Shown here: positions 9,084 through 50,013 of the stretch, piece by piece
Layout of the letters: each line of letters opens with the position of its first letter
How positions within the stretch are numbered: the first letter of the stretch is position 1
Assembly (NCBI RefSeq): GCF_014062315.1
Contig: NZ_JACGLT010000014.1
Span: 22,020 to 86,019, forward strand
Direction of reading: 5' to 3'
From: Gelidibacter maritimus
GTDB taxonomy: Bacteria > Bacteroidota > Bacteroidia > Flavobacteriales > Flavobacteriaceae
DNA: 64,000 nt
Notes under the pieces: model-generated
Database searches by the model: none
Seen by the model: only the letters and a program-made list of their open reading frames with translations
What the model was told of the DNA's origin: nothing
Translations under genes and position numbers: made by a program

Positions 9084-10370
9084 TTAAAGATCCTTGCTGA
9101 CCGTTTTAACCGCTTTAATCGTTGCATCCAAATCATCATAACTCAGGGCATCACACAAAAACCAAGTTTCAAAAGCACTCGGGGCAATATAAACTCCTTC
9201 TTTGAGCATGCCGTGAAAGAACTTTTTAAAGGTCTCGTTATTGGCTTTTGCAGCGGTTTCAAAATCATGCACCTCATGATCTTCAAAATGGATGGAAATC
9301 ATGGATCCTTTCCTATTAATGGTATGTTTTATATTATAGTCTTGAAGAGCATTTGCCATACCATGGTGTAAGTATTCTGTCTTTTCTGCTAAGCGGTTAT
9401 AAACCGTCCTATCGTTATTTAACTGCTGTAGCATGGCCAAACCTGCCGCCATGGCTAACGGATTCCCACTTAAGGTTCCCGCTTGGTACACAGGCCCATG
9501 AGGCGCCAAATAATCCATGATTTCATTTCGCGCGGCAAACGCTCCAACAGGCAAACCACCGCCGATCACCTTTCCAAAGCAAACAATATCGGCATTGACC
9601 TTATATAATTCTTGAGCCCCACCCGCAGCCAATCTAAAACCAGTCATCACCTCATCAAAAATCAACAGGATATCATGTAGATCACATAAAGCCCTTAACT
9701 TCTGCAAGAAATTATCCTTTGGAGGAATACATCCCATATTTCCTGCAACAGGCTCAATGATGATACAGGCAATCTCCTCTTTATTTGCTTCCACTAATTG
9801 TGTTACATTATCAATATCGTTAAACTTTGCCAAAAGTGTATCTTTAGCGGTACCCTGGGTCACCCCTGGGCTATTTGGCGTTCCAAAAGTTATTGCACCA
9901 GATCCTGCCGCAATTAAAAACGCATCACTATGGCCATGATAGCATCCCGCAAACTTGATGATTTTATCTTTTTTTGTATAACCGCGAGCCAATCTGACTG
10001 CACTCATACAGGCCTCAGTACCTGAGTTGACAAATCTTATTTTGTCGATATTGGGCACCATAGAAACCGCCAATTCTGCAATTTCGGTTTCAATGGCCGT
10101 TGGCATTCCAAAAGAAGTGCCTTGTTTGGCTTTCTTAACCACGGCATCCACTACCGGCTCAAAGGCATGACCAAGAATCATGGGCCCCCATGAGTTAATA
10201 TAATCAATATAGGTGCGTCCATCCTCATCGTGGATATAAGCACCCTTAGCCGATTGGGCAAAAATAGGGGTTCCACCGACGGCTCCAAACGCCCTAACCG
10301 GCGAATTCACACCTCCTGGAATTACTTTTTCTGCTTCTTTAAATAAACTACTACTGCGTTGATATAACAT
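9084..10370 (-). CDS. hemL: Glutamate-1-semialdehyde 2,1-aminomutase
   Basis: HemL converts glutamate-1-semialdehyde to 5-aminolevulinate, the committed precursor of haem and sirohaem, with pyridoxal phosphate. It has the class III aminotransferase fold at the family length (428 residues). The PLP-binding motif [12 protein letters not shown] and the Schiff-base lysine Lys267 ([13 protein letters not shown]) are present, as is the N-terminal [16 protein letters not shown] typical of HemL. It is the last gene of a four-gene minus-strand operon, 3 bp after the glucosaminidase gene. The other genes have no clear link to haem, so the operon looks like a positional grouping. Confidence 0.97.
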
Positions 10371-22702: not shown

Positions 22703-24853
22703 TCAATAATTAAGTAACTCAATTATCTTTTGCTTCACCTTCTCGGTACTCGGAATCATAGTCTCCTCCAATATGGAATTCAGAGGAATAGCAGGCATAT
22801 TCTCACTGCCAATAGTCATCACCGGCGCATCTAAGAATTTAAAAGATGCTTCCTGAATCTTGCCTGCCAAAGCCCTTGCAAACGAATTGTTTGAAGGCTC
22901 TTCAGTTACCACAAGACACTTTCCTGTTTTCTTAACGGAGGTCATAATGGTCTCTTCGTCTAAAGGAAACAAGGTTCTTAAGTCGATAATTTCAATTTGA
23001 TCGCGCATGTCCAACTCACCAGATGCATTGTATGCCCAATGCACACCCATGCCGTAAGTAACAATAGTAATGGTCTCTTTATCTTCCTGTTTCCAAATTT
23101 CTTGAAGTACCCAAGCCTTGCCAAAAGGCAGCACATAATCTTCGCTTGGCTCAACAGATGTGGCGCCTTTAGTGCCCGGCACCTTGCTCCAATACAACCC
23201 TTTATGCTCCAAAATAACAACTGGATTTGGATCGTAATAGGCTGCTTTTATTAAGCCTTTTAGGTCGGCACCGTTGCTTGGATAAGCTATTTTAATGCCT
23301 CTAATATTAGTGACGATACTTTCCACTGACGATGAATGGTACGGACCTCCACTGCCATAAGCCCCAATTGGCACACGCAAAATCATGCTCACGGGCCATT
23401 TTCCATTAGATAAATAGCAGCTTCTACTGACTTCTGTAAATAATTGATTCAAGCCTGGCCAAATATAATCGGCAAATTGAACCTCAACGATTGGTTTTAG
23501 TCCAACAGCACTCATGCCAACGGTTGACCCCACTATAAAAGCTTCTTGAATGGGTGTATTGAAGACCCGATCATCTCCAAACTTTTGCGCCAAGGTTGCG
23601 GCCTCTCTGAAAACACCACCTAATCTGCCACCAACATCCTGTCCATAGAGCAAACATTCTTTATGTTTTCGCATTAATTCTTCTACGGCGAATAAAGCAC
23701 AATCAACCATAACGACTTTCTCAGCACCATTAGGAGAACGCTCGCCTTCTTCTTCAGTGATTGGCGTGGGTGCAAAATCGTGGGTGAATAAATCTTCTGG
23801 TTTTGGATCATCGGCTTTTAGGGCCATATTATAATCTTTCTCTACAGCCGTATGACATTCCTTTTCTAGAGTTTCTAAATCATCATTAGAAAACCCATGA
23901 TCCAATAACTGTTGCTTTAATACCGGATAAGGATCTCGAGATCTGGCTTCTTCCAAATCATCACGATACCATTCCATTCGCACGCCAGAGGTATGATGAT
24001 TCAGCAAAGGCACTTTAGCATGCACTAAAAATGGCCGACGTTCTTTACGAATGGTAGCAATCACTTTTTCAATGGCTTCATAACTCTCAATGAAATTGGC
24101 ACCATCAATTGTAATAGCTTCCAAACCTTTAAAGCCTTTTGCGTATTCAAAGGCATTCTGGGCTCGGGTTTCAGCAGCATTGGCCGAAATATCCCAATCG
24201 TTATCTTGTACCAAATATAAAATGGGTAATTTCTTAAGGACCGCCATTTGAAAGGCTTCCGCAACTTCGCCTTCGGTAATGGAGGCATCGCCTAAGGAGC
24301 AAACCACAATTGGCGCATTCCCGTTGCGGCGGGAAGCTTCTGAATGAACAGAGGCATCATAATCACTTAAAAATTCTTCTTCATCAGGAATTGATATTTT
24401 AGTTGTTTCGTTTTCCTCTTTAAAAAGATTACCGCCTTCGCGGTAAGAGAACCCCATAGCGACGCCAGTTGCAGGAATAGCTTGCATTCCAGTAGCTGAT
24501 GATTGATGGGGGATTTTAGGTTTGTCAAAATCCTTCAAACTTGGATGGCAATAGTAGGTGCGTCCCCCAGAAAACGGATCGTCTTTTTTAGCCAATAATT
24601 GCAGCATTAAATCGTAAGGTTTCAACCCGAAAGACAACAGCATTGCATCATCACGATAATACGGAAACGCATAATCCTGCGGCAGCAATTGCATGCCTAA
24701 AGCTATTTGGATGACTTCGTGACCTCTTGAGGTAGCGTGAACGTATTTGGATACTTGCTTGAAATTGGCTTCGTACAATTCGGACATTGCCTTGGCTGTA
24801 CAAAGATGTTTGAATGCTTTTTTTAATAGATCTTTACTTATGTTTTTTGACAC
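22703..24853 (-). CDS. Fused alpha/beta E1 of a 2-oxoacid dehydrogenase complex
   Basis: The 716-residue protein joins E1-alpha (about residues 1-340) and E1-beta (about 375-716), which are separate subunits in most bacteria. The thiamin diphosphate site is in CSLGDASITEGEVAEAFQMA through YLVQDNDWD. The beta half has LYGQDVGGRLGGVFREA and ADYIWPGLNQL. The family decarboxylates branched-chain or related 2-oxoacids and transfers the acyl group to the E2 lipoyl arm. It starts at GTG, 65 bp after E2, with a palindromic repeat in the gap. Its position at the end of the paa island suggests phenylpyruvate or other aryl 2-oxoacids as substrates (inference). E3 is not in the window. Confidence 0.93.
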   Translation of the reverse strand: MSKNISKDLLKKAFKHLCTAKAMSELYEANFKQVSKYVHATSRGHEVIQIALGMQLLPQDYAFPYYRDDAMLLSFGLKPYDLMLQLLAKKDDPFSGGRTYYCHPSLKDFDKPKIPHQSSATGMQAIPATGVAMGFSYREGGNLFKEENETTKISIPDEEEFLSDYDASVHSEASRRNGNAPIVVCSLGDASITEGEVAEAFQMAVLKKLPILYLVQDNDWDISANAAETRAQNAFEYAKGFKGLEAITIDGANFIESYEAIEKVIATIRKERRPFLVHAKVPLLNHHTSGVRMEWYRDDLEEARSRDPYPVLKQQLLDHGFSNDDLETLEKECHTAVEKDYNMALKADDPKPEDLFTHDFAPTPITEEEGERSPNGAEKVVMVDCALFAVEELMRKHKECLLYGQDVGGRLGGVFREAATLAQKFGDDRVFNTPIQEAFIVGSTVGMSAVGLKPIVEVQFADYIWPGLNQLFTEVSRSCYLSNGKWPVSMILRVPIGAYGSGGPYHSSSVESIVTNIRGIKIAYPSNGADLKGLIKAAYYDPNPVVILEHKGLYWSKVPGTKGATSVEPSEDYVLPFGKAWVLQEIWKQEDKETITIVTYGMGVHWAYNASGELDMRDQIEIIDLRTLFPLDEETIMTSVKKTGKCLVVTEEPSNNSFARALAGKIQEASFKFLDAPVMTIGSENMPAIPLNSILEETMIPSTEKVKQKIIELLNY

Positions 24854-24875: not shown

Positions 24876-24909
24876 AGACCTAACAGGTTTCAAAAAACCT
24901 GTTAGGTCT
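24876..24909. repeat. Palindromic repeat, AACCT/AGGTT family (perfect 15-bp arms)
   Basis: AGACCTAACAGGTTT and AAACCTGTTAGGTCT flank a 4-nt loop between E2 and E1. Related palindromes lie at 28513-28545, 33201-33231, 39265-39293 and 40290-40335. It could also act as an mRNA processing or attenuation hairpin between the two genes. Confidence 0.85.
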
Positions 24910-24918
24910 GTATTTATT

Positions 24919-26259
24919 TTAAATTGCTCTATTAACATCAAATTGCTCGAAATAATCAGCAACTCGACGAACAAAACTGCCTCCTAAGAAACCATCAACC
25001 ACGCGATGGTCAAACGACAAAGACAAATACATCATGCTCCTGATCGCTATTTCATCACCTTTTTCTGTTTCAATGACTTCCGCTCTTTTTTTGATGATCC
25101 CCAAGGCCAAAATGGCCACTTCTGGCTGATTGATGATGGGTGTCCCCATCACACTTCCAAAGGTACCAACGTTAGAAATAGTGAACGTACTGCCTTTAAT
25201 ATCGTCGCCTCCCAATTTATTGTCTCGCGCTTTATTGGCAAGGTCATTGACGTTTTCGGCCAAGGTCATCAAATCTTTGGTATCTGCATTTTTAACAACT
25301 GGAACAATCAAATTCCCACTCGGCAAGGCCGTTGCCATGCCTATATTGATATCTTCTTTCACGATAATGTTATTCCCATCCACAGAAGCATTGATGTTTG
25401 GAAAATCCTTAACCGCTTTGGCGACGGCTTCCACAAATAACGGCGTGAAGGTCAATCGCTCACCATATTTCTCTTGAAAAGCTTCCTTATTGGCGTTTCT
25501 CCAGTTGACCATATTGGTCATATCGGCTTCCACATAAGCGGTGACGTGTGGTGATGTATGTTTGGAATAGACCATATGATCGGCAATCATTTGGCGCATG
25601 CGATCCATTTCAATGATTTTTCCTTTGCCTTTATCAAAATTCAATTGCGGAATTCGGTATGCGGTCGGGTCTTGTGTTACGGGCTGTGCAAACTTATAGG
25701 GTCTTCCATCCTCAATATAATTGAAAACATCGCTTTTCCGTAATCGTCCCTCATGTCCAGTGGCTGGAATCCTTGCTAATTCTTCATAGCTGATATGGTG
25801 CTCCTTGGCAATTTTCAGAATTAGTGGCGAAAAGAAAGCATTTGAAGTTGAAGTCTGATAACCATGGAGAGGAATTGAAGTGGTTGATTTTGGTGCAGTT
25901 TTAGTTTGCTTTGACTTGTTTGGCTTTTGTACTATTTTTTCTTGAGTGTTCTCAGACTTAGTAGCTACAACCTTCTGTTCATTGGAGGTTATGTCTTCCG
26001 AAGCTTCAAAAATTGCAATAATTTCCCCCACCGGAACTACATCTTTTTCCTTAAACAAGGTTTGTATTAACTTACCGGATTGGGGTGCTGGGACTTCATT
26101 GTCAACCTTATCGGTAGCAACTTCCAGAATGATATCGCCCTCTTCAAAGCTGTCTCCTTCGTTGATGAGCCAACTGATGATTGTTCCCTCAGTGATACTT
26201 TCGCCCATTTTGGGCATCCTTAATTCCCACGAAAGTGGGAATCTCTTTTCTTTACTCAT
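24919..26259 (-). CDS. Dihydrolipoamide acyltransferase E2 of a 2-oxoacid dehydrogenase complex
   Basis: The 446-residue protein has a single N-terminal lipoyl domain (ATDKVDNEVPAP, lipoyl-Lys in DKVD), a linker rich in Lys, Thr and Ser, and an E3/E1-binding domain (about 138-178, ILKIAKEHHISYEELARIPA). The C-terminal catalytic domain has SFDHRVVDGFLGG near the end. It accepts the acyl group from E1 and passes it to CoA. The N-terminus MSKEKRFPLSWELRMPKMGES is odd: residues 6-13 are encoded by an inserted palindromic repeat (26223-26242) just before the conserved MPKMGES. Genes downstream and upstream are E1 (65 bp) and paaY (332 bp away). Confidence 0.94.
   Translation of the reverse strand: MSKEKRFPLSWELRMPKMGESITEGTIISWLINEGDSFEEGDIILEVATDKVDNEVPAPQSGKLIQTLFKEKDVVPVGEIIAIFEASEDITSNEQKVVATKSENTQEKIVQKPNKSKQTKTAPKSTTSIPLHGYQTSTSNAFFSPLILKIAKEHHISYEELARIPATGHEGRLRKSDVFNYIEDGRPYKFAQPVTQDPTAYRIPQLNFDKGKGKIIEMDRMRQMIADHMVYSKHTSPHVTAYVEADMTNMVNWRNANKEAFQEKYGERLTFTPLFVEAVAKAVKDFPNINASVDGNNIIVKEDINIGMATALPSGNLIVPVVKNADTKDLMTLAENVNDLANKARDNKLGGDDIKGSTFTISNVGTFGSVMGTPIINQPEVAILALGIIKKRAEVIETEKGDEIAIRSMMYLSLSFDHRVVDGFLGGSFVRRVADYFEQFDVNRAI
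26223..26242. repeat. Palindromic repeat inside the E2 coding sequence
   Basis: ATTCCCAC and GTGGGAAT flank GAAA. It belongs to the TTCC...GGAA family also seen at 31934-31951, 33167-33186, 33366-33385 and 38905-38922. Here it lies in frame and adds the residues FPLSWEL to the E2 N-terminus. Confidence 0.85.
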
Positions 26260-26591
26260 TGTTTCTTATTTTCAATCCTTCAAGGTTTTTGAATCCATGC
26301 GGATTAACCCTTTTTTATTGATTCTATATTACTTTCTTGTTTTGACATTGCGTTAGCGATTACTCAACCACACTTATTTGATAATTAAGAAATCGTGAAT
26401 GCTCAGCATTTGAACGATTTGTTTGAGCTCTCCCAACTTTTCGTTGGGAAGCGAGTAGTTAAAGTGCGACCCTTGGGTAACGCCCAACTATTTCAAATTA
26501 TAATCATCCTCCGTGTATGATACATTATCCTTCATAGCATTGCAATTAATACCGCGAACTGAATATAATATCTGCCCTCATCATTCTGCTT
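26260..26591. other. Gene-free gap between paaY and E2
   Basis: 332 bp without a convincing gene. A hairpin TCCCAAC/GTTGGGA occurs around 26433-26452. Small frames end within about 15 codons. The gap may hold a separate promoter for E2-E1, but I see no full consensus. Confidence 0.55.
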
Positions 26592-27206
26592 TTAATCAGA
26601 AGATTCCTCCTTTCGCAGGAAGTGTTCGCGAAGCGTCTTATACACATCTTCCTGTAACTTCATGTTTTCAGGAACCTCCCTTAATGGCTCTACTTCTCTT
26701 AAACTCTCATGGCAATCGGCTGGTAATTGCTGATAAAGTTGCGTTCCTTTAGTTTTCCAAGCAATCATTTCATCGCTTACTTGTTTAATTACCTTTGCCG
26801 GATTACCAACTACCAAACTGCGTTTTGGAATAATGGTTTCTGCTTTTACAAAACTCATGGCTCCAACGATGCATTCATCGCCAATTTCAGCATCATCCAT
26901 AATAACAGAATTCATCCCAATCAGGCAATTTCTACCCAAATTGGCACCGTGAATTATGGCACCATGACCAACATGAGCGCTTTCTTGTAGTCTAATCGAC
27001 TTGCCCGGAAACATGTGCACCGTGCAATTTTCTTGAACGTTGACACCATCCTCCAAAATAATCTGTCCCCAATCGCCGCGAATGGCTGCTCCTGGACCGA
27101 TATAGCAGTTTTTGCCGATAATGACATTTCCTGTGACTGCAGCTAATGGGTGCACAAAACTGGATTCGTGTACAACGGGAACGTAGTTGTTGAATTTATA
27201 GATCAT
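26592..27206 (-). CDS. paaY: PaaY-type hexapeptide-repeat protein (gamma-carbonic anhydrase fold)
   Basis: The 204-residue protein has a left-handed beta-helix made of hexapeptide repeats (VTGNVIIGKNCYIGPGAAIRG through VGNPAKVIK). The metal-ligand His residues occur in VHMFPG, AHVGHGAIIHG. In E. coli, PaaY is a thioesterase that clears dead-end CoA adducts of the phenylacetate pathway. The unusual C-terminal part after about residue 160 is helical and charged. The last residues (FLRKEESSD) lie within a degenerate palindromic repeat at 26604-26621. The gene follows the four-helix-bundle gene by 49 bp and belongs to the paa island. Confidence 0.92.
   Translation of the reverse strand: MIYKFNNYVPVVHESSFVHPLAAVTGNVIIGKNCYIGPGAAIRGDWGQIILEDGVNVQENCTVHMFPGKSIRLQESAHVGHGAIIHGANLGRNCLIGMNSVIMDDAEIGDECIVGAMSFVKAETIIPKRSLVVGNPAKVIKQVSDEMIAWKTKGTQLYQQLPADCHESLREVEPLREVPENMKLQEDVYKTLREHFLRKEESSD
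26604..26621. repeat. Degenerate TTCC/GGAA palindrome at the paaY 3' end
   Basis: TTCCTCC and GCAGGAA with one mismatch; codes for part of FLRKEE near the PaaY C-terminus. Same family as 31934-31951. Confidence 0.5.
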
Positions 27207-27220
27207 AGATAATAGAGTTT

Positions 27221-27250
27221 AGTGGGTAGTGGGTAGTGGGTAGTGGGTAG
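27221..27250. repeat. 7-bp tandem repeat AGTGGGT
   Basis: Four full copies of AGTGGGT plus AG, in the gap between the four-helix-bundle gene and paaY. Confidence 0.9.
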
Positions 27251-27255
27251 ATTGT

Positions 27256-27642
27256 TCATGTTTTCTTATTTTTTAAGTATTTCATTAAAGCAGACAACAT
27301 TTTATTAATTTCAACAAGCAAAGACCTGTTAACTTCACTTTGCTCAAATGTTATATAATTACGCAATCGTGCTTTTGTAGTTGCAGCGACACATTCTAAA
27401 GCACTACCGCGTGCGATTCTTAAATAATTTAAAAAACTTACATCAGAATTGCTCGAACCTTCAGCAATATCAAATGCAATGGAATCAGCGGCTCTTGCAA
27501 ATTGCGATGATAATCGATAAGATTCATAATTGGGAAAATGATTGATTTGTCCATGAACTAATTCACCAAATTCTATAGCCTTTTGGTATACTTTTAATTC
27601 CTCAAAATTAAAATGATATTTACTTTCCATAAACCATTTCAT
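27256..27642 (-). CDS. Four-helix bundle protein (23S rRNA IVS/S23 type)
   Basis: The 128-residue protein resembles the four-helix-bundle proteins first found in 23S rRNA intervening sequences. Signature parts are FEELKVYQKAIEFGELVHGQI, SSQFARAADSIAFDIAEG, and NYLRIARGSALECVAAT. The same fold occurs in the Avd accessory protein of diversity-generating retroelements. Members bind nucleic acid or act as pentameric scaffolds; the cellular role of stand-alone copies is unclear. Either the ATG at 27642 or the one at 27630 (MESKYHFNFEEL) may be used; the second gives the usual N-terminus. It interrupts the paa genes and has no visible link to phenylacetate. Confidence 0.88.
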   Translation of the reverse strand: MKWFMESKYHFNFEELKVYQKAIEFGELVHGQINHFPNYESYRLSSQFARAADSIAFDIAEGSSNSDVSFLNYLRIARGSALECVAATTKARLRNYITFEQSEVNRSLLVEINKMLSALMKYLKNKKT

Positions 27643-27692
27643 TTAACTTCCATTCTCTGCTACCCTCTACCATCTACACCCGCTACCCTCTT

Positions 27693-28442
27693 CTAATTAT
27701 ACTCTTTAAGTTTCTCCTTCGTAAACTCACTCAACACCAATCGGCCGCTAATTTTTGCACGTTGAAGCAATAGCTGATCCCAATCTTCGGTACCACGCCA
27801 AAACATAGTTTTCATTTCGGCCATGGCTTTCGGATTGTAGCTGCACATATTTTCCGCGAATGTTTTTACAGCCTCATCCAATTCTTCGGCCGAGTCGAAT
27901 ACTTGGGTATACAACCCTTTTTGCATGGCCCATTCCGCCGTATAAAATGTATTGGCGTCCATGGCAATCTGTGACATTCCGCTCAATCCCAATTTTCTTT
28001 GGACTGCGGGGCCAACCACAAACGGTCCGATGCCAACATTCAGTTCGCTTAATTTGATTTGGGCATATTTAGTCGCCATACAATAATCGGTTGCTGATGC
28101 CAGTCCGACACCTCCTCCAACAGTTTTGCCTTGGATACGACCGATGATGAATTTTGGACATTTTCGCATGGCATTAATGACATTGGCGAATCCCGAAAAG
28201 AATATCTTTCCTGTTTCCTCATCGTTGATAGCAACAAGTTCGTTAAAGCTCGCACCTGCGCAGAATGTTCTATCGCCACCACTCTGCAGCACGATGACTT
28301 TAATGCTATCGTCTTCCCCAGCAGAATGAATGGTTCTTGCCAATTCTGAAAGCAGATTTCCGGGCAAGGAATTATGGGCAGGATGAAAAAATTCGATATA
28401 TCCTACTCCGTTTTTGTTTTTTAGTGTTACGTATGGCTCCAT
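27693..28442 (-). CDS. Enoyl-CoA hydratase/isomerase family protein of the paa island
   Basis: The 249-residue crotonase-fold protein has the CoA/oxyanion motif RTFCAGASFNEL and GKTVGGGVGLASATDY. The residue equal to catalytic Glu144 of rat mitochondrial hydratase is Gly113 (GGGVGL instead of GGGxEL), while the Glu164 equivalent is kept (Glu133 in LSELNVGIGP). With one Glu lost, a simple hydratase (PaaF) role is uncertain. It may be an isomerase or act on a specialised CoA ester. The position between paaZ and paaY suggests a step in the lower phenylacetate pathway. Confidence 0.85.
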   Translation of the reverse strand: MEPYVTLKNKNGVGYIEFFHPAHNSLPGNLLSELARTIHSAGEDDSIKVIVLQSGGDRTFCAGASFNELVAINDEETGKIFFSGFANVINAMRKCPKFIIGRIQGKTVGGGVGLASATDYCMATKYAQIKLSELNVGIGPFVVGPAVQRKLGLSGMSQIAMDANTFYTAEWAMQKGLYTQVFDSAEELDEAVKTFAENMCSYNPKAMAEMKTMFWRGTEDWDQLLLQRAKISGRLVLSEFTKEKLKEYN

Positions 28443-28512
28443 ATATTAGGATCAAGATTTTTAGAATCAAGAATCAAGACTGTTTTGACTCTTGAATGAG
28501 ATTTTATGATTG

Positions 28513-28545
28513 AAACCTTTCAGGTTTTAAAAACCTGAAAGGTTT
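28513..28545. repeat. Palindromic repeat, AACCT/AGGTT family (16-bp arms)
   Basis: AAACCTTTCAGGTTTT and AAAACCTGAAAGGTTT are perfect inverted copies separated by one base, 10 bp before the paaZ stop codon (downstream of paaZ on its strand). Confidence 0.88.
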
Positions 28546-28554
28546 GTGCTATTT

Positions 28555-31053
28555 TCAAATTAATCCGAACTGCTCAAAGTGATGATTCAGATGTTTTCTT
28601 TCCAACAAGTACGATTCATATTTATTCAATTCACCAAAAACCAAGTTTTTCAATTTTGCTTCTGGATGTTCTTTAAAAAATGCGACATACCTTTCTCTTT
28701 GTTCTTGGAATTTTTGTTTTGCAGTTTCTAAATCTGGATATTTTAATTCATCCAATTTATCTTTTTCGAGTAATGGAAAATTCGAATTCCTTGGAAATTT
28801 CTCATAGGTATAGAGACTTGCATGAATTTTTTCCAATATCTTTTCCGGTGTCGTGATATCAAAATCCTGAACTTCACCTGAAGCGATTTTGTAAGTGTAT
28901 TCCAGATGCTCCAACATGTGCTGTGGGGTCATGATGCCCCATTTTGGTTTCATGTCTGGAGTTAATTTTGAAAGAAGCTCTTCAATTTTCTCATCGGTCA
29001 TTTCTACAAACACTTCTTGTTTTTTCTGAACCATGGTTAAAATTGTCGCTACGGCTACCAATTCATCTTCTGCATCGAAAACCTCAACAAACCATTTGAC
29101 AATTCCACTTGGATGTTCTGCGGAAGCGACATCTCTGTCCACTTTTTGTTTACAGGTCAATCGCACATAAATGGTATCGTTATGATATAATGGGCGTAAA
29201 AATCGACAGTCTTCCAATCCGTAGTTGGCAGCTACAGGACCTTTATTTGGATAGACAAACAATCCAGCGGCAGCAGCAATGATGAAATAGCCATGGGCAG
29301 TTCGTTTTTCAAAAATGCTCCCATCCAAGGAAGTGATATCCGTATGGGCATAAAAATGGTCCCAAGTGAGATTCGAAAAATTGATAATATCTGTATCAGT
29401 AAGCGTCCGTTTATGGGTCTTTAAGGACATACCAGGTTGAATATCTTCCCAATGGTATTTGAATGGATGCTGCTCTGCTTCTTTGTATTTGGCTTTGGCT
29501 TGATAAATACCAGTAATTTCGGTCAATGTGGTTGGGGATCCTTGGATGGCAGTTCGTTGTAAGTAATGCTTAATGCCTCTTAATCCTCCCATTTCTTCAC
29601 CACCTCCCGCACGTCCTGGACCTCCATGAACCAAATTCGGCAATGGCGACCCGTGACCAGTGCTTTCCTTGGCCATTTCTCGGTTGATGACTAAAATCCG
29701 GCCGTGATGACTTGCCGCATTGACGACATATTCTTTAGCGATTTTATCGTCGAAAGTTGCAATAGACGACACCAGAGAACCTTTACCCATTTGGGCCAAA
29801 GTAACAGCTTCTTCTATATTTTTATAAGGCATAATGGTGCTCACTGGACCAAAAGCTTCGGTTTCGTGAACCGATAAGTTTTTAAACGGGTTGTCTTCAC
29901 GCAGCAAAATCGGACTTAAAAACGCTCCTTTTTTGGAATCAGCGCCAATTGTCTCTATTTTATCCAAATCGCCATAAACAATACTGGCGGTTTTAGCCAA
30001 TTCCTCCACACGATTCCTAACTTCCGTTACTTGATCCCTGCTTATCAATGCACCCATTCTGACGCCCTTAAGTCTCGGATCGCCAATAGTAACCCTGTCC
30101 AAAGCTTTTCCTAAGGCAACCTGAACATCTTCGACCAAATCTTGTGGTACAATAATGCGACGGATTGCTGTACATTTTTGTCCACATTTGACTGTCATTT
30201 CATTTCTGACTTCTTTGATAAACAAATCAAATTCGGGAGTTCCAGGAACAGCATCTTCACCTAATATTGAAGCGTTCAAAGAATCAGCCTCCATATTGAA
30301 AGGGACGGATTCTTCAATGATTCGTTTATGCGATTTTAACAAGCGACCGGTGGTTGCTGAGCCTGTAAAGGTCACCACATCCTGTGATTCGACAGTATCT
30401 AAAATAGTTCGTGCTGAGCCTGTAATTAATTGTAAAGCACCTTCGGGAAGAATACCCGATGCTATAATTTCACGCACCACAGCTTCGGTTAAAAACGAAC
30501 CATTCGTTGCTGGTTTTACTACTGCAGGAACACCCGCCATCCAATTGGATGCACATTTTTCCAACATGCCCCAAACCGGGAAGTTAAAGGCGTTAATATG
30601 AACTGCCACTCCACGCTTTGGCACCATGATATGATGCGCCATAAAGCGTCCACCACGTGATAAATCGATAGGCTCTCCTTCTACATGATAGGATTGGTTA
30701 GGAAATAATTTTCTTAAGGATGCGTTGGAAAAAAGGTTACCAAATCCGCCTTCAATATCAATCCAACTATCCATTCTGGTTGCGCCGGTTCTATAACTTA
30801 ATTCGTAGAAAGCCTCCTTTCTCTTTGTAAGATATAAAGCCAAGCTTTTCAACATATTCCCACGTTCTTGAAAGGTCATTTTCCGAAGCACTTCACCCCC
30901 TTTGGTTCTTCCATAATGAAGAATTTCGGCGAAATCCAATCCTTGAGTGTCTGAAAGCGCAACGACTTCGCCAGTGATGGCATCGTACATAGGAGTACCT
31001 TCTCCTTTACCTTCAATCCATTGTCCTGTGACGTAATTTTGTATTTTTTTCAT
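28555..31053 (-). CDS. paaZ: PaaZ bifunctional ring-opening enzyme with C-terminal DUF1569/DinB-like extension
   Basis: PaaZ hydrolyses the seven-membered oxepin-CoA ring and oxidises the resulting aldehyde. The N-terminal aldehyde dehydrogenase (to about residue 510) has catalytic Glu256 (NMEADS) and Cys294 (GQKCTAIRR). A MaoC-like hotdog hydratase follows (about 530-675), with DHFYAH and GYFIIAAAAGLFV. Residues from about 679 to 832 are an additional domain with HMLEHLEYTYKIASG and a final LNHHFEQFG, the His pattern of DUF1569/DinB-superfamily four-helix proteins. E. coli PaaZ (about 681 residues) lacks this part. Its role is unknown. The gene lies downstream of a toxin-antitoxin pair, with a palindrome 11 bp before its ATG. 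Confidence 0.95.
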   Translation of the reverse strand: MKKIQNYVTGQWIEGKGEGTPMYDAITGEVVALSDTQGLDFAEILHYGRTKGGEVLRKMTFQERGNMLKSLALYLTKRKEAFYELSYRTGATRMDSWIDIEGGFGNLFSNASLRKLFPNQSYHVEGEPIDLSRGGRFMAHHIMVPKRGVAVHINAFNFPVWGMLEKCASNWMAGVPAVVKPATNGSFLTEAVVREIIASGILPEGALQLITGSARTILDTVESQDVVTFTGSATTGRLLKSHKRIIEESVPFNMEADSLNASILGEDAVPGTPEFDLFIKEVRNEMTVKCGQKCTAIRRIIVPQDLVEDVQVALGKALDRVTIGDPRLKGVRMGALISRDQVTEVRNRVEELAKTASIVYGDLDKIETIGADSKKGAFLSPILLREDNPFKNLSVHETEAFGPVSTIMPYKNIEEAVTLAQMGKGSLVSSIATFDDKIAKEYVVNAASHHGRILVINREMAKESTGHGSPLPNLVHGGPGRAGGGEEMGGLRGIKHYLQRTAIQGSPTTLTEITGIYQAKAKYKEAEQHPFKYHWEDIQPGMSLKTHKRTLTDTDIINFSNLTWDHFYAHTDITSLDGSIFEKRTAHGYFIIAAAAGLFVYPNKGPVAANYGLEDCRFLRPLYHNDTIYVRLTCKQKVDRDVASAEHPSGIVKWFVEVFDAEDELVAVATILTMVQKKQEVFVEMTDEKIEELLSKLTPDMKPKWGIMTPQHMLEHLEYTYKIASGEVQDFDITTPEKILEKIHASLYTYEKFPRNSNFPLLEKDKLDELKYPDLETAKQKFQEQRERYVAFFKEHPEAKLKNLVFGELNKYESYLLERKHLNHHFEQFGLI

Positions 31054-31063
31054 TCTATCCCAT

Positions 31064-31082
31064 CCCTTTCCAAACGAAAGGG
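31064..31082. repeat. Hairpin repeat at the paaZ 5' end (CCCTTTC family)
   Basis: CCCTTTC and GAAAGGG flank CAAAC, followed by CTTTTTG. A closely similar element with similar flanks lies at the same place before paaE (41503-41521). Confidence 0.75.
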
Positions 31083-31216
31083 CTTTTTGTTAGTTAAACT
31101 TCTTTACTTCTATATTCATAATTCGGTTCAGAACCAATACTCCTAATCCAAAATCCTCCAATCAGTCAGGTCCTTTCACTCAGTACCGAAAATTACAATG
31201 AATACCATATTCAATT

Positions 31217-31549
31217 TTATAATCGTAAAATATCATCAAGTGTTTTTTTTATTTCTAAAACAATTTCTTCTGAAATAACCCCTATTTTCTTCTTAAAACG
31301 CAATTTCGAAAGTGTTCTAACTTGAAATACCAAAACTTCCGAAGGCACTTCCAAACCATTAATTTTATCAGGTTTTAAAATGGGATTTCCTTTATAACCT
31401 TTGATTGAACTTGTTAGCGGGCATACAATTGCCAAATCAGATTTTGAATTCATCAAGTTCCCACTTATAATAACTGCTGGTCTATTATCCGCCTGTTCAC
31501 TGCCCTTTATTGGGTCAAAATAAACATTCCAAATCTCACCCTGTTTCAT
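31217..31549 (-). CDS. mazF: MazF/PemK-family toxin (mRNA interferase)
   Basis: The 110-residue protein has the MazF opening MKQGEIWNVYFDPIKGSEQ followed by RPAVIISG and the conserved VCPLTSSIKG. MazF toxins cut RNA at short specific sequences. The C-terminal helix (EEIVLEIKKTLDDILRL) is typical. The start overlaps the antitoxin stop by 4 bp (ATGA). All family residues that I can check are present, so the toxin is probably functional. It sits between paaJ and paaZ with no functional relation to either. Confidence 0.93.
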   Translation of the reverse strand: MKQGEIWNVYFDPIKGSEQADNRPAVIISGNLMNSKSDLAIVCPLTSSIKGYKGNPILKPDKINGLEVPSEVLVFQVRTLSKLRFKKKIGVISEEIVLEIKKTLDDILRL

Positions 31550-31791
31550 TTCTTTTCCAGCTCCTCTAAAATCCTGACGTAATCTTCCAAGCCTTCTTCT
31601 GCAATTAAGAGCATTTCTGGATCCTTTGCAGCACGTTGAAAGGATTTGGCATATTCAGCACGCTTGATTTGGTCTAAATAATATTCCAATGCTTTCTCTA
31701 TAATTTTGTTCTTCGGTAGCTTAAGTTTTTTTGCCGTATCAGCAAGCTCCTTAAGCAATTCGTCCGGTAATGATGATGTAAATGTTGCCAT
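31546..31791 (-). CDS. Ribbon-helix-helix antitoxin of the MazEF-type pair
   Basis: The 81-residue protein starts MATFTSSLPDELLKELADTAKKL, a ribbon-helix-helix DNA-binding region with the strand first and then two helices. The acidic helical C-terminus (AEEGLEDYVRILEELEKK) is expected to bind and block MazF. The toxin follows with an ATGA overlap. The pair is likely autoregulated from the AT-rich inverted repeat just upstream. Confidence 0.92.
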   Translation of the reverse strand: MATFTSSLPDELLKELADTAKKLKLPKNKIIEKALEYYLDQIKRAEYAKSFQRAAKDPEMLLIAEEGLEDYVRILEELEKK

Positions 31792-31793
31792 TT

Positions 31794-31816
31794 TATATTT
31801 ATTTTATATAAATATA
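31794..31816 (-). promoter_or_regulatory. Candidate operator of the MazEF-type pair
   Basis: TATATTTA and TAAATATA are 8-bp inverted copies with a 7-bp spacer, 3 bp upstream of the antitoxin ATG. RHH antitoxins bind such sites, but pure AT composition makes chance likely. Confidence 0.35.
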
Positions 31817-31918
31817 GATAACATTTATAAATTTTTATATCAAGTTTGTGGAAACTTGCTGTTGTTAACATTCTTCGGAGAATGAACTGAGCTTTAGGGA
31901 GCCAATGAGATTAACTAC

Positions 31919-31951
31919 GCTGAACCTAAAGGTTTCCTGCCTACGCAGGAA
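31919..31951. repeat. 33-bp repeat with TTCC/GGAA palindrome at the paaJ stop
   Basis: It differs by one base from 38890-38922. It ends in TTCCTGC-CTAC-GCAGGAA (31934-31951). The paaJ stop codon lies in the loop (TAG at 31941-31943, minus strand), so the repeat supplies the last codons Ile-Pro-Ala and the stop. Confidence 0.85.
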
Positions 31952-33155
31952 TTCGTTCTATAATAGCCGCATAACCTTGTCCAACCCCAATACACATGGT
32001 AATCAACGCATATCTTTTTCCCGTTTCTTTAAGCTCCAGTGCGGCAGAATATGCCACTCGAGTTCCCGTTACGCCGAGCGGATGACCAATGGCAATGGCT
32101 CCTCCGTTAGGATTCAATCTCGGGTCGTCGTCTGCCAATCCCCATGCTCTTGTGCACGCCAAAGCTTGAGCTGCAAAGGCTTCATTGAGTTCGATAATAT
32201 CCATGTCTTCCATCGTCAAACCTGCTTTTTCAAGCGCCTTATTAGAAGCTTCCACGGGACCAATGCCCATGACTCTCGGCTCAACGCCAACCACTGCTGA
32301 ACTTACAATTCTTGCCAATGGTTTTAAATTGTATTTTTTAACGGCTGATTCCGAAGCGATGATGGTTGCAGCGGCACCATCATTCAGCCCCGAGGAATTA
32401 CCTGCGGTGACGCTTCCTCCCTCAGCTTTGAATGCCCCACGTAATTTCCCTAAAACTTCTAAAGAGGTATTCGGTTTTACAAATTCGTCTTTTGAAAATT
32501 TAATAGGGTCTTTTTTTCGTTGAGGAATTTCAACAGTCATAATTTCTTTCGCTAAACGCCCGTTTTCTTGAGCTTTAGCTGCTTTCATTTGGCTCCAATA
32601 AGCAAACTTATCCTGATCCTCACGTGAGATATTATATTTATCTACCAGATTTTCAGCAGTTTGACCCATACCTTCGGTTCCATATAGTTTTTGCATTTTC
32701 GGATTGACAAACCGCCATCCGAAACTGGAATCGTACATTTGAGCATCGGTTCCAAAAGCTTTTGAGGGTTTTGCAACCACATAGGGCCCACGAGTCATAT
32801 GTTCCACCCCACCGGCAATAAAAATATCACCGTCTCCAGCTTTTATGGCACGATTGGCGTGAATGATTGCTGATAATCCTGAGCTACATAAACGGTTGAC
32901 CGTTTCACCTGGAACGGTAAATGGCAATCCAGCCAATAATGAAGCCATGCGTGCCACATTCCGATTGTCTTCGCCTGCTTGATTGGCACAGCCCAAAATG
33001 ACATCGTCGTAGGCATCCTTTGGGATGTTTGGGTTCCGTTTGACAATCTCTTCTATGACCAAAGCTGCTAAATCGTCAGTTCTTACTGCAGATAATGTGC
33101 CTTGATAACTTCCTATTGGTGTTCTAATGCCGTCTATGATATATGCTTCTTTCAT
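31941..33155 (-). CDS. paaJ: Acetyl-CoA acyltransferase (3-oxoadipyl-CoA/3-oxo-5,6-dehydrosuberyl-CoA thiolase)
   Basis: The 404-residue thiolase performs the CoA-dependent cleavages that release acetyl-CoA at the end of the phenylacetate pathway. The nucleophilic Cys is in NRLCSSGLSAI (about residue 91). The family blocks NEAFAAQ, GGAIAIGHPLG (catalytic His) and MCIGVGQG (second Cys) are present. The C-terminus IIERIPA ends inside a palindromic repeat that provides the stop codon, so the native C-terminus may once have differed. It is separated from the metalloprotease gene by 233 bp holding three palindromes. Confidence 0.95.
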   Translation of the reverse strand: MKEAYIIDGIRTPIGSYQGTLSAVRTDDLAALVIEEIVKRNPNIPKDAYDDVILGCANQAGEDNRNVARMASLLAGLPFTVPGETVNRLCSSGLSAIIHANRAIKAGDGDIFIAGGVEHMTRGPYVVAKPSKAFGTDAQMYDSSFGWRFVNPKMQKLYGTEGMGQTAENLVDKYNISREDQDKFAYWSQMKAAKAQENGRLAKEIMTVEIPQRKKDPIKFSKDEFVKPNTSLEVLGKLRGAFKAEGGSVTAGNSSGLNDGAAATIIASESAVKKYNLKPLARIVSSAVVGVEPRVMGIGPVEASNKALEKAGLTMEDMDIIELNEAFAAQALACTRAWGLADDDPRLNPNGGAIAIGHPLGVTGTRVAYSAALELKETGKRYALITMCIGVGQGYAAIIERIPA

Positions 33156-33166
33156 AAGCTTGCTTT

Positions 33167-33186
33167 ATTCCCGCGAAGGCGGGAAT
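33167..33186. repeat. TTCC/GGAA palindrome upstream of paaJ
   Basis: ATTCCCGC and GCGGGAAT flank GAAG, 12 bp before the paaJ ATG. Confidence 0.85.
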
Positions 33187-33200
33187 CTTATTGTTTAAAA

Positions 33201-33231
33201 GACCAACAAGGTTTTTAACCTTTGCTGGTTG
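33201..33231. repeat. Imperfect AACCT/AGGTT palindrome
   Basis: GACCAACAAGGTTT and AACCTTTGCTGGTTG pair with one bulge and one mismatch; same family as 39265-39293. Confidence 0.6.
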
Positions 33232-33365
33232 TTAAATTATTTGTTTATTAATTTAATATTTCCAGGATTAAAACGATTCTGTCATACACTGGACAATTTT
33301 TGTGTGTTAAAGTCATCAATCGTTATCAGCGGTATTTACAATGCTAACGCTCTTACAACACTGAG

Positions 33366-33385
33366 ATTCCTGCCTACGCAGGAAT
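33366..33385. repeat. TTCC/GGAA palindrome downstream of the ypfJ-like gene
   Basis: ATTCCTGC and GCAGGAAT flank CTAC, 4 bp from the stop codon of the metalloprotease gene. Confidence 0.85.
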
Positions 33386-33388
33386 TGG

Positions 33389-34252
33389 TTAATTCAAAAG
33401 TTCTGAAAACGTATCGCCTTGTCTGATATCGCCAGTTTTATAACCTTTCATAAACCAATGCATTCGTTGCTCAGAAGTGCCGTGAGTAAAACTATCCGGT
33501 TGCACACTGCCTTGTGTTCGTTTTTGAATAGCATCATCACCCACTGCATTTGCAGCGCTTAATGCCTCTTCAATATCACCTTCTTCCAAATATTCTTTAT
33601 TGTGATGCGCCCATACACCTGCATAGAAATCGGCCTGAAGCTCTTGTGCTACAGAAAGTTGATTGGCTTGTGCTGCACTGGATTGTTGTTGCATTTGCCT
33701 GACCTTTTGAGACGTGCCGAGCAAGGTTTGAACGTGATGACCAATTTCATGAGCCGTAACATAAGCAATTGCAAAATCGCCACCCTTGGCGCCAAATCGA
33801 CTTCTTAGCTGGTCAAAAAAGGATAAATCCATATATACTTTTTGATCTGCAGGACAGTAAAAGGGCCCTGCCGCAGCACTTGCATTTCCGCAACCAGTTC
33901 TTACAGCGTCTGTAAACAAAACCACATTAGGCTCTTTATAAGCTCCCAAACCATTATCCCTGAATATTTGGTTCCAAATATCTTCAGTATCCACCACCAC
34001 TGCATTCATAAACGCACCAAGTTCCTTTTCTTTCTCAGTTAATTCTCTTTGCTCTCCAGATTCTGATACCGATTGCGATTGATTGACCTGATCCAAAATT
34101 GGCGCTAATACTTGTCCGGTTTCGCCACCAAACATTTGTAGCAGGACTACAACTACGGCGATTATACCACCACCAGCAGCAAATTTACCCTTAGTGGACA
34201 TACCGCGACGGTCTTCCAAATTCCCACTTTGTCTTCTACCTCTCCATTTCAT
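33389..34252 (-). CDS. Neutral zinc metallopeptidase (YpfJ family), membrane anchored
   Basis: The 287-residue protein opens MKWRGRRQSGNLEDRRG, the YpfJ-type cytoplasmic start. One membrane helix follows (about 27-45), then a peptidase domain with HEIGHHVQTLLG (HExxH) and QELQADFYAGVWAHH giving the third ligand. The family (Pfam zinc_metallopeptidase) is widespread with unknown targets. It lies between paaI and paaJ without an obvious metabolic link to phenylacetate, which suggests an insertion into or a hitch-hike with the island. Confidence 0.93.
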   Translation of the reverse strand: MKWRGRRQSGNLEDRRGMSTKGKFAAGGGIIAVVVVLLQMFGGETGQVLAPILDQVNQSQSVSESGEQRELTEKEKELGAFMNAVVVDTEDIWNQIFRDNGLGAYKEPNVVLFTDAVRTGCGNASAAAGPFYCPADQKVYMDLSFFDQLRSRFGAKGGDFAIAYVTAHEIGHHVQTLLGTSQKVRQMQQQSSAAQANQLSVAQELQADFYAGVWAHHNKEYLEEGDIEEALSAANAVGDDAIQKRTQGSVQPDSFTHGTSEQRMHWFMKGYKTGDIRQGDTFSELLN

Positions 34253-34304
34253 ATATTTTAGTGTTTAAAATTTTTAGTTATTAAATTTAAAACATTCTTT
34301 CTTA

Positions 34305-34709
34305 TTATTCCCATTCTTTATTGGTTCTATAAACCACCCCTTTAAAAAGCGCGACCAATTCATCACCCCGTTTCACCTCGACAATATTAAATCCCAATTT
34401 ATTTTTAACCTTCTCAATGACAGATTCAGCCACTATATAATCACCTTCATCTAAAGCTTCGATATGGTTGATACTTGTTTCGATAGAAACTGCGTATTTA
34501 CCATGGGTATTGGCCGTAAATCCGAAAGCGGTGTCTGCTAATGAATAACTGATGCCACCGTGAGCTTTACCCATACTGTTTAGCATTTCCTTTCTTATCG
34601 TTAATCCGACTTTACAACGCCCTATTTCGCATTCTAAAATTTCAATGCCGAGCCAGGTACTGTAGGCATCGAAGGAGAGCATTTTATATGGTATAAGGGT
34701 TTCGTTCAT
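34305..34709 (-). CDS. paaI: PaaI hotdog thioesterase
   Basis: The 134-residue hotdog-fold protein shows NSMGKAHGGISYSLADTAFGF, the PaaI active-site region with the Asn, His and Asp positions of this thioesterase family. E. coli PaaI hydrolyses hydroxyphenylacetyl-CoA and related adducts, recycling CoA when the pathway stalls. Its place between paaH and the YpfJ-like gene supports this role. Length agrees with the family. Confidence 0.93.
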   Translation of the reverse strand: MNETLIPYKMLSFDAYSTWLGIEILECEIGRCKVGLTIRKEMLNSMGKAHGGISYSLADTAFGFTANTHGKYAVSIETSINHIEALDEGDYIVAESVIEKVKNKLGFNIVEVKRGDELVALFKGVVYRTNKEWE

Positions 34710-34810
34710 TTAGTGATGAGTTTTGTAGAGATGAGAGGTGAGTGAAGTCATACGACTTATCACAATTCAGCTCTTATTATTTAAGTGTCTTCTCAAAGCA
34801 GATATCATTT

Positions 34811-34897
34811 TTGATTGATGATTAACGATTTTTGATTGTTGAAGTGTCCAAACTTCTGAATTCAAAAATCAGCACTCTTCAATCGTTAATCAAAAAA
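34811..34897. repeat. Large imperfect inverted repeat between paaI and paaH
   Basis: GATTAACGATT...TTGAAGTG on the left and CACTCTTCAATCGTTAATC on the right are inverted copies with an insertion of about 7 bp. The right end covers the paaH stop codon (34886-34888). Confidence 0.6.
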
Positions 34898-36091
34898 CCT
34901 CATACCTTCAGAAAGCATTCGTCGCAACAACGGGCTACACCGATACCTATCTTCATGATATTCATTGTACAATTCATCCATTTTTGTAACGCACCAATCG
35001 ATGCCTTTTTCATTTGCCCATGCCAATAATCCCTTTGGGTAATTGACACCTTTGGTCATGGCATTATCTATATCTTCTGCGGAAGCGATATTCATGAATA
35101 ACGCATCGGCAGCTTCGTTGATAAGCATAACAAGGACACGATCGAATATATATTGTTTTAGTTTTTTATCATGAGTGTCCTTTTCCTGATAATAATCGCG
35201 TTCAGGAATAATTATACCTCCATTTTTATCATAGTTATAATAACCTTTACCCGATTTCCTTCCCAAATATCCCGCTTCTGCAAAACGCTTTTGCGTAAAA
35301 GATGGCTTATATCTCGGATCAAAATAAAAGGCTTTAAAAACGGTTTCAGTTACCGTGTAATTGACATCGTTTCCAATAAAATCCATTAATTCGAAAGGGC
35401 CCATCCTGAAACCTCCCAAAGTTTTAAGGCTTTCATCTATGGTTATAAAACCTGCCTGTCCGGCAGGCAGGTCGGCAATTCCTTCTTCGTATATTCTTAA
35501 AGCTTCGCCATAAAAAGGCCTTGCCACCCGATTGACAATAAATCCGGGAGTGTCTTTTGCAACGGCAACAACTTTTTTCCAATCGGATATTGTATTTACG
35601 GTCTTATCCAAAATGTTTTTTGAGGTTTGAATGGCCGGAATCACCTCAACCAGTTGCATCAAGGGCGCCGGATTGAAAAAATGAATGCCGATGCAGCGCT
35701 CAGGATTTTTCAAGGCCGAAGCAATCGACGCAATGGATAAGCTTGATGTATTTGAGGCGATGATACAGTCTTCTGAAACATAGGTTTCCAGTTCTGAAAA
35801 CACTTTCTTCTTGATGTCCAGATTTTCAACAATAGCCTCGATGGTTAAATCGGAATCCGATAGATCATTTAAATTACTAACGTAGGAAATGTTGTTTTGA
35901 ATCCGAGATTTTTCGTCAGCATCAATACGATCTTTTTCAATCAATCGTGACAATATTTTATCCAAAGCTGTTTTTGCCTTGTCTAATGCGGATTGATTGG
36001 TATCGTACAACTTCACTTTGCAGCCTGATGTTGCTGCCACTTGCGCGATGCCGCTTCCCATGGTTCCAGACCCTATTATTCCAATTCTCAT
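34886..36091 (-). CDS. paaH: 3-Hydroxyacyl-CoA dehydrogenase
   Basis: The 401-residue enzyme oxidises 3-hydroxyadipyl-CoA with NAD in the lower phenylacetate pathway. The Rossmann motif GIIGSGTMGSGIA starts directly at the N-terminus, so the ATG at 36091 is chosen over nine extra codons that only translate repeat DNA. The catalytic HFFNPAP is at about 137-143, and both C-terminal 3HCDH domains are visible (GGFRMGPFELMDFIG and a second half to the end). An in-frame 21-bp palindrome (35451-35471) adds about seven residues, LPAGQAG, at 208-214 between EEGIAD and FITID. The stop codon lies in another repeat. Confidence 0.95.
   Translation of the reverse strand: MRIGIIGSGTMGSGIAQVAATSGCKVKLYDTNQSALDKAKTALDKILSRLIEKDRIDADEKSRIQNNISYVSNLNDLSDSDLTIEAIVENLDIKKKVFSELETYVSEDCIIASNTSSLSIASIASALKNPERCIGIHFFNPAPLMQLVEVIPAIQTSKNILDKTVNTISDWKKVVAVAKDTPGFIVNRVARPFYGEALRIYEEGIADLPAGQAGFITIDESLKTLGGFRMGPFELMDFIGNDVNYTVTETVFKAFYFDPRYKPSFTQKRFAEAGYLGRKSGKGYYNYDKNGGIIIPERDYYQEKDTHDKKLKQYIFDRVLVMLINEAADALFMNIASAEDIDNAMTKGVNYPKGLLAWANEKGIDWCVTKMDELYNEYHEDRYRCSPLLRRMLSEGMRFFD
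35451..35471. repeat. In-frame palindrome inside paaH (CCTGCCTG family)
   Basis: CCTGCCTG and CAGGCAGG flank TCCGG; 21 bp equals exactly seven codons and reads LPAGQAG in PaaH. Peptides of this kind are typical of GC-rich palindromic elements inserted in Bacteroidota genes. Confidence 0.85.
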
Positions 36092-38889: not shown

Positions 38890-38922
38890 GCTGAACCTAA
38901 AGGTTTCCTGCCTTCGCAGGAA
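38890..38922. repeat. 33-bp repeat with TTCC/GGAA palindrome next to the paaB stop
   Basis: One base different from 31919-31951. The palindrome TTCCTGC-CTTC-GCAGGAA is 38905-38922, 2 bp beyond the paaB stop codon. Confidence 0.85.
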
Positions 38923-38924
38923 GT

Positions 38925-39264: not shown

Positions 39265-39293
39265 ACCTACAAGGTTTTGAAAACCTTGCAGGT
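39265..39293. repeat. AACCT/AGGTT palindrome between paaA and paaB
   Basis: ACCTACAAGGTTTT and AAAACCTTGCAGGT, 14-nt arms with one mismatch and a one-base centre, 2 bp from the paaA stop codon. Confidence 0.85.
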
Positions 39294-49991: not shown

Positions 49992-50013
49992 AATTCCTAT
50001 TTGCACAGGAATT
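49992..50013. repeat. TTCC/GGAA palindrome in sigma operon
   Basis: AATTCCT and AGGAATT around an 8-nt loop, 3 bp after the stop of the anti-sigma-like gene. Related in arms to the palindromes of the paa island, but less complete. Confidence 0.5.

Follow-up and report, generated by a model that had tools for sequence, protein, structure and literature searches.

Two families of short repeated palindromes, inside and between genes of Gelidibacter maritimus, occupy orthologous sites in some sister species but not in others

The 64,000-nucleotide stretch of Gelidibacter maritimus DNA analysed here (the window; contig NZ_JACGLT010000014.1 of assembly GCF_014062315.1, positions 22,020 to 86,019 of the forward strand) carries a paa island in which paaH and the gene for E2, a 2-oxoacid dehydrogenase acyltransferase, each contain a short palindrome that leaves the reading frame open. 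We call the palindrome in paaH element A and the one in the E2 gene element B. The features on which the argument rests are the following:

34886-36091, minus strand: paaH, 3-hydroxyacyl-CoA dehydrogenase, host of element A (open reading frame; Pfam 3HCDH_N and 3HCDH)
35451-35471, minus strand: element A, 21-bp palindrome in paaH, encoding LPAGQAG (window read, shuffles, orthologue alignment)
24919-26259, minus strand: E2 gene, host of element B (Pfam Biotin_lipoyl, E3_binding and 2-oxoacid_dh)
26223-26242, minus strand: element B, 20-bp palindrome at the E2 N terminus, RFPLSWEL (window read, shuffles, orthologue alignment)
33167-33186, no strand: intergenic copy of element B, 11 bp upstream of the start of the thiolase gene; its counterpart in genome G003 has element A in its loop

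Element A at 35451-35471 is CCTGCCTGTCCGGCAGGCAGG, the sequence of its family being CCTGCCTGCCGGNCAGGCAGG (21 bp), and across it PaaH (401 amino acids (aa), minus strand) reads ..EEGIAD-LPAGQAG-FITID.. Element B at 26223-26242 is ATTCCCACGAAAGTGGGAAT, and E2 (446 aa) reads MSKEK-RFPLSWEL-RMPKMGES. An original prediction, made from the letters of the window, had placed both palindromes at these positions, with LPAGQAG in paaH, FPLSWEL ahead of MPKMGES in E2 and the frame open in both; its coordinates and readings are exact. It had also treated the two as one kind of repeat, and this did not hold: they belong to two different families. The occurrence of both palindromes is not due to chance, as in dinucleotide-shuffled windows the mean number of matches with up to three mismatches was 0.00 for the paaH palindrome and 0.01 for the E2 palindrome, and element B, with up to two mismatches, matched the window 8 times against a mean of 0.27 and a largest value of 2 in 30 shuffles. 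In the whole genome, where copy numbers were obtained through pattern searches, the paaH pattern was found at 8 places (up to two mismatches), ATTCCC-N8-GGGAAT at 7 and the backward patterns at 0, and the additional copies inside genes that had been predicted do exist.

The PaaH alignment comprised 28 of the 30 loci fetched, without the two weakest, whose matches cover only some 290 residues at the N terminus. Exactly the seven codons of LPAGQAG are absent from 26 of the 28 orthologues, those of close relatives included, and are present only in the genome under study (G000) and in G003, a species of the same genus, for which nine genomes were used. No distant orthologue among the loci read has the same residues. 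At base level the empty paaH site reads GCTGA|TTTC and the filled site of G003 GCTGA-CCTGCCTGCCGGACAGGCAGG-TTTC, without target duplication. When compared with solved structures by phmmer, PaaH aligned to 3-hydroxybutyryl-CoA dehydrogenase (3mog) with a gap at the position of LPAGQAG. A structure prediction of PaaH made without an alignment gave a mean predicted local distance difference test score of 38.6, too low to place the insert in a surface loop.

The E2 set comprised 30 loci, one of which (L089) is unreadable at the N terminus because the contig ends there. FPLSWEL or FPISWEL was found in six of the 29 readable loci (G000, G001, G003, G004, G007 and G008), and the element is missing from the other 23, which are the genus members G002, G005 and G006 and loci of other genera; the nearest element-free N termini read MSKFDL-MPKMGES and MSMFEL-MPKMGES. 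Element B in E2 is a net gain of seven codons with some of the flank replaced, so that, unlike in paaH, the cut is not clean, and its translation at this N-terminal position requires that the ATG of MSKEK be the start used. The seven-codon gap in 26 of 28 PaaH proteins, the missing element in 23 of 29 E2 loci and the empty sites bear out insertion as the origin, as originally proposed, and this conclusion is firm.

A second clean insertion of element A was read within element B. Upstream of the thiolase gene, G004 and G007 read ATTCCCGCC|TTCGCGGGAAT, and G003 carries CCTGCCTGCCGGCAGGCAGG exactly at the bar. At these two clean empty sites, in paaH and nested in B, element A arrived as a self-contained unit of 20-21 bp, and the target was not duplicated. 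The RidA locus was found in three states: no element in G001 and in the seven loci of other genera read; B only in G002, G004, G007 and G008, with a decayed B in G005 and G006; and B with A in its loop in G000 and G003. A grouping of G000 with G003 was rejected both by paaH DNA with the insert removed (approximately unbiased (AU) test, p=0.007) and by 13 concatenated proteins (AU p=0.0017), some other branches of the clade being weak in the concatenated tree (57 and 65%). As these two species share element A at one paaH site without grouping together, more than one gain or loss there is probable: either the site was filled twice or the insert was lost precisely more than once. The bases adjoining the insert are identical in G000 and G008 (GCC / TTT ATA) and in G003 and G004 (GCT / TTC GCA); because these flanks match different species, a transferred tract would be about the insert alone.

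Element A recurs far outside the paa island. With up to one mismatch it occurs in 8 of the 9 genus genomes and in 0 of 50 others of the order, and the exact 21-mer in 13 of 395 genomes of the phylum (the present one included) and in 12 of 171 genera. In a collection of named genomes, exact A was found in at least 117 stretches, with about nine phyla among the 80 titles listed; the taxa were read off record titles. The matches listed come from Bacteroidota, Ignavibacteria, Omnitrophota, several Patescibacteria, Nitrospirae, Thermodesulfobacteriota, Saganbacteria, a Candidatus Obscuribacterium, Betaproteobacteria/Burkholderiaceae and unplaced bacteria, and one is a metagenome-assembled genome titled Nitrosopumilus, a label taken from the title only. 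In 34 genomes, most of them chosen for carrying A, there are 1 to 41 copies each (up to one mismatch) and 0 matches to the reversed pattern; loop substitution variants such as CCTGCCTACCGGACAGGCAGG and CCTGCCTGCCGGCAAGGCAGG recur in them, the length being fixed by the search pattern. The pattern was also present in 27 viral-contig stretches, which were excluded from the frame and flank tests below. Around nine copies (L191, L192, L218, L221, L228, L240, L246, L274 and L295), A lies inside other GC-rich sequences that recur across taxa, for example CCCCTC..GAGGGG with GGTGRGG, or GTCATTG..AAGCAATC; these look like further dispersed repeat families.

The base preceding A is a purine in 152 of 166 cellular sites, and of 12 flank positions only -1 is strongly biased. 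A test of complementarity at mirror positions gave a weak signal and was replaced by a run-based test with permuted flanks, before which 12 near-duplicate sites were removed. Flanks pairing over at least 6 bases were found at 13 of 154 sites, 2.3 being expected from permuted flanks, and over at least 8 bases at 8 sites, against 0.2 expected.

Element A equals seven codons, and its common form (N=A) is free of stops in all six frames. Among 150 distinct cellular 21-mers, taken from L189-L331 and the genus loci and assigned to open frames rather than curated genes, 94 lie in stop-to-stop frames of at least 200 aa; 6 of these were ambiguous, leaving 88. The LPAGQAG frame accounts for 41 of the 88, against an expectation of one sixth (p=6.5e-11), and the other frames for 14, 11, 10, 8 and 4. 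Hosts in the LPAGQAG frame include TrpS, RadA, TypA and FabG, and AroA is a host in the PACRTGR frame; all five have extra residues at the element relative to solved homologues, which in FabG are part of a larger insertion. Further putative hosts, named from their sequences, are DnaE, a GyrA/ParC-type protein, GrpE and UvrA. In the genus, A was found in a heavy-metal ATPase linker, a multicopper oxidase, RidA and a DUF5712 protein. At L422 (genome G349) an identical in-frame variant (LPTGQAG) is repeated in each of four consecutive genes, which are 837-852 aa long and about 3 kb apart, so that host gene and A were probably duplicated as one. Within the genus, the 21-bp form lies in reading frames of at least 150 aa at 7 of 15 places and the 20-bp form at 1 of the 15 loci read of its 20 places (Fisher p=0.035). 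The idea that selection for multiples of three leaves 20-bp copies between genes and 21-bp copies within them was dropped, as intergenic 21-bp copies are common outside the genus.

Element B runs through the whole genus. The pattern ATTCCYGC-N4-GCRGGAAT (up to one mismatch) occurs at 45 places in G000 and at 97, 91, 91, 40, 20, 16, 13 and 9 in the other eight genomes, and the reversed pattern at 0 places in the same nine. At 53 distinct genus sites, oriented by the loop, one flank is well defined (+1 C in 91%, +2 T in 94%, +3 C in 68%) and the opposite one is weak (-1 A in 62%, -3 C in 45%). In all four genomes scanned with Rfam (G000, G003, G004 and G006), B sits in the loop of an S-adenosylmethionine (SAM) riboswitch (RF00162, 68.6-72.3 bits), and the same site in G001 and G005 is without it; a scan of the window itself returned 0 Rfam families. 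The remaining copies in the window, and the riboswitch, are:

31933-31952, minus strand: variant of element B that overlaps the thiolase gene at its 3' end and supplies the stop codon (ATT CCT GCG TAG, ..IERIPA*)
33366-33385, no strand: element B, intergenic
26603-26622, minus strand: decayed element B at the C terminus of a hexapeptide-repeat protein (..LREHFLRKEESSD)
24317-24336, minus strand: decayed element B inside the E1 gene (VHSE-ASRRNGN-APIVV); G003 and G004 have a perfect copy at the same site
38904-38923, no strand: decayed element B, intergenic
49993-50012, no strand: decayed element B, outside any open reading frame of at least 90 aa
L115 12088-12231, contig 6 of G000, outside the window: SAM riboswitch with element B in a hairpin loop

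As aligned, the IPA end of the thiolase is found only in G000 and G007 (2 of 10 genomes); the hexapeptide-repeat protein has the B-type end in 6 of 10 and DFMK in the remaining 4. Copies of B also occur in regular arrays. L107 of G007 has at positions 1501-2384 a tandem array of 135-153-bp units with one B palindrome per unit, the B positions of G008 are likewise regularly spaced (about 206 and 265 bp), and at about 760-1362 of L023 three B palindromes stand about 290 bp apart in tandem repeats that also hold palindromes of a third type, directly upstream of a transposase-like gene.

That gene belongs to the Y1_Tnp family, which includes the transposases associated with repetitive extragenic palindromes (REPs), here RAYTs; the genome has 9 Y1_Tnp matches, 8 of them above the cut-off. 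The third palindrome type is richer in A+T (ACCT..AGGTTT-AAACCT..AGGT) and lies in the window at 24876-24909, 28513-28545 and 39265-39293. In this genome it flanks RAYT-like genes, in L022 on both sides and in L023 upstream, which makes it the most promising candidate for the genome's own REPtron, the pairing of REP and RAYT. A further type of perfect palindrome, ACGGACAGGTCGCGACCTGTCCGT-like, was seen in L021 (1065-1084 and 1341-1364) and L115 (about 9977-10006) of the same genome. Of the 39 RAYT matches in eight A-rich genomes 30 were read, and 4 of these 30 loci, L395, L398 and L408 among them, have A or a close variant within a putative terminal hairpin of the RAYT gene, one of the four judged by eye. 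This association is suggestive, a lead rather than proof.

Elements A and B are two families of REP-kind short repeated palindromes. Orthologous sites are filled in some sister species and empty in others, and copies lie in intergenic DNA, in the loops of existing hairpins and in genes. They are likely to be mobile. The moving form would be a single-strand hairpin, cut and rejoined in trans by an HUH tyrosine transposase of the RAYT/IS200-IS605 kind; this REP/RAYT-like mechanism is a reasoned guess. In genes, selection would retain copies whose peptide is mild and which do not close the reading frame; the inserts in PaaH and E2 most probably have no function of their own and are carried along as tolerated passengers. 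Taken as one explanation, REP-kind families, single-strand movement and selected in-frame copies seem to us rather probable, on account of the empty and filled sites, the three states of RidA, the homoplasy in paaH, the excess of pairing flanks, B in the riboswitch loop, A in putative RAYT terminal hairpins, the bias to the LPAGQAG frame and the extra residues relative to solved homologues.

Several results weigh against this explanation. No A was seen in the RAYT hairpin at the other 26 of the 30 loci; strict 21-mers within 250 bp of RAYT genes numbered 2, both at one locus, against 0.30 expected (30 of 39 matches read); and the search in the eight A-rich genomes ties no enzyme to A. By the 6-base measure 141 of 154 A sites lie outside hairpins, flank pairing of at least 4 bases is not in excess (30 against 24.0, p=0.1), and as a hairpin the empty paaH site does not stand out (z -0.50; 55 of 200 shuffles fold equally well). 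The GTAG or CGTC tag of known REPs was not found at the flanks of A in the 166 cellular sites. Element B in the E2 of G001 may have come by transfer, not by a new insertion, and lineage sorting with very short recombination tracts could have produced the paaH pattern. Between G000 and G003, 31 of 377 seven-codon windows of paaH are identical, so that vertical identity of 21 bp is possible and the identity of the inserts is weak evidence on their age.

Other origins were weighed against the same data. Replication slippage or template switching at hairpins would copy palindromes with no dedicated enzyme, and it suits the excess of hairpin-loop targets and the nested and tandem palindromes; however, the same exact 21-mer stands in several phyla and at hairpin-free sites, which calls for a source and a carrier beyond local slippage, and we consider this origin unlikely. 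Palindromic footprints are a known product of transposon excision, and the joining of two short terminal repeats, after a longer insertion sequence (IS) or miniature inverted-repeat transposable element (MITE) had left, could yield a palindrome of 20-21 bp. Against such footprints, target duplication is absent at both clean empty sites, no transposase was found in the 9 open frames scanned between 24 neighbouring A pairs 0.4-3.5 kb apart, and no filled long form was met, so that we give them a decidedly low probability.

That the palindrome is a functional site kept by selection (a terminator, a protein-binding site or a DNA-uptake signal) would agree with 20 fixed bases conserved across phyla, although the search pattern itself fixes them; sister species differ at orthologous sites, the host genes are unrelated and copy number varies widely, down to none in some genomes, which leaves this reading little credit. 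It is very improbable that the residues are ancestral and were deleted elsewhere: a site shared by two non-grouping species would fit, but the residues are absent from every other-genus locus in the alignment, a loss would be needed in each outgroup read, and the inserted DNA is the repeat itself, present at unrelated places. Many named matches are metagenome-assembled genomes, as an assembly or sequencing artefact would have it; orthologous placement in two separately assembled species, the in-frame bias, the 0 matches to the reversed pattern and the isolates among the matches (Salegentibacter, Muricauda, Terrimonas) make this scarcely credible.

The elements illustrate a simple way for proteins to acquire short insertions. 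The unit is minimal, one 21-bp sequence recurring from Bacteroidota to Patescibacteria and Omnitrophota, and because sister species differ at the insertion site, the empty target can be read base by base. We suggest tentatively, and with less confidence than the explanation itself, that CCTGCCTGCCGGNCAGGCAGG ranks, as far as known, with the smallest DNA units that move: a hairpin without a tag, able to cross phyla and to enter coding sequences precisely, with a preference for hairpin loops, which can be gained or lost repeatedly at one site and adds LPAGQAG to core proteins such as RadA, TrpS and TypA. How REP-like repeats spread is left open in Di Nocera 2013 (PMC3733652) and Corneloup 2021 (PMC8266576), and a small, well-defined unit whose empty sites are known to the base opens this mechanism to direct tests.

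The best-known palindromes lying in frame within genes are those of Rickettsia (PMC3767692) and, in other species, in-gene REPs (PMC3733652). In-gene REPs are known; element A was not found described by title or start of abstract in the literature searched, where LPAGQAG-type peptide strings gave nothing and the DNA string unrelated papers only, subscription papers being mostly outside the search. MITEs usually have target duplications. Element A resembles them in being short, non-autonomous and able to add codons to genes, but it is 20-21 bp long, lacks an internal part and shows no target duplication at its two clean sites, and MITEs measure 70-300 bp with terminal inverted repeats of 15-30 bp (PMC3733652). 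With the Rickettsia palindromic elements (RPEs), which a MITE review also covers (PMC10969869), it shares a position in frame within unrelated, often essential genes; RPEs are 100-150 bp long, and in a study of R. japonica every rickettsial orthologue had the insert at the same locus (PMC3767692), whereas A has 20-21 bp and sister species differ in its presence. Like the GTAG REPs with their RAYTs (PMC8266576), A is a short hairpin spread through genomes, and it is lodged in putative hairpins that end some RAYT genes, although it has neither the GTAG tag nor a proven cognate transposase.

For element B the nearest comparison is the CGTC REPs, which Di Nocera 2013 (PMC3733652) describes together with the GTAG REPs, with in-gene copies and REPs within palindromes; RPE-4 and RPE-6 contain CGTC REPs, and the class CGTC-1 is equated there with dRS3 of Neisseria and RPE-6 of Rickettsia. 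The original prediction that the sequences are other than those of RPEs stands for the paaH element, but the E2 element has the CGTC-1 stem-loop. At the 53 genus sites B has neither the CGTC or TGTC/CCTC head nor the CCA tail, a CTC-rich tail being in place. One of the two exact-pattern copies read in G031, of another genus, is TGTC-stem-loop-CCA, the canonical form. As in CGTC-1 REPs, B has an 8-bp stem beginning with AT and a 4-base loop, as also seen in the DNA folding of two copies, it occurs both between and within genes, and no transposase is assigned to it.

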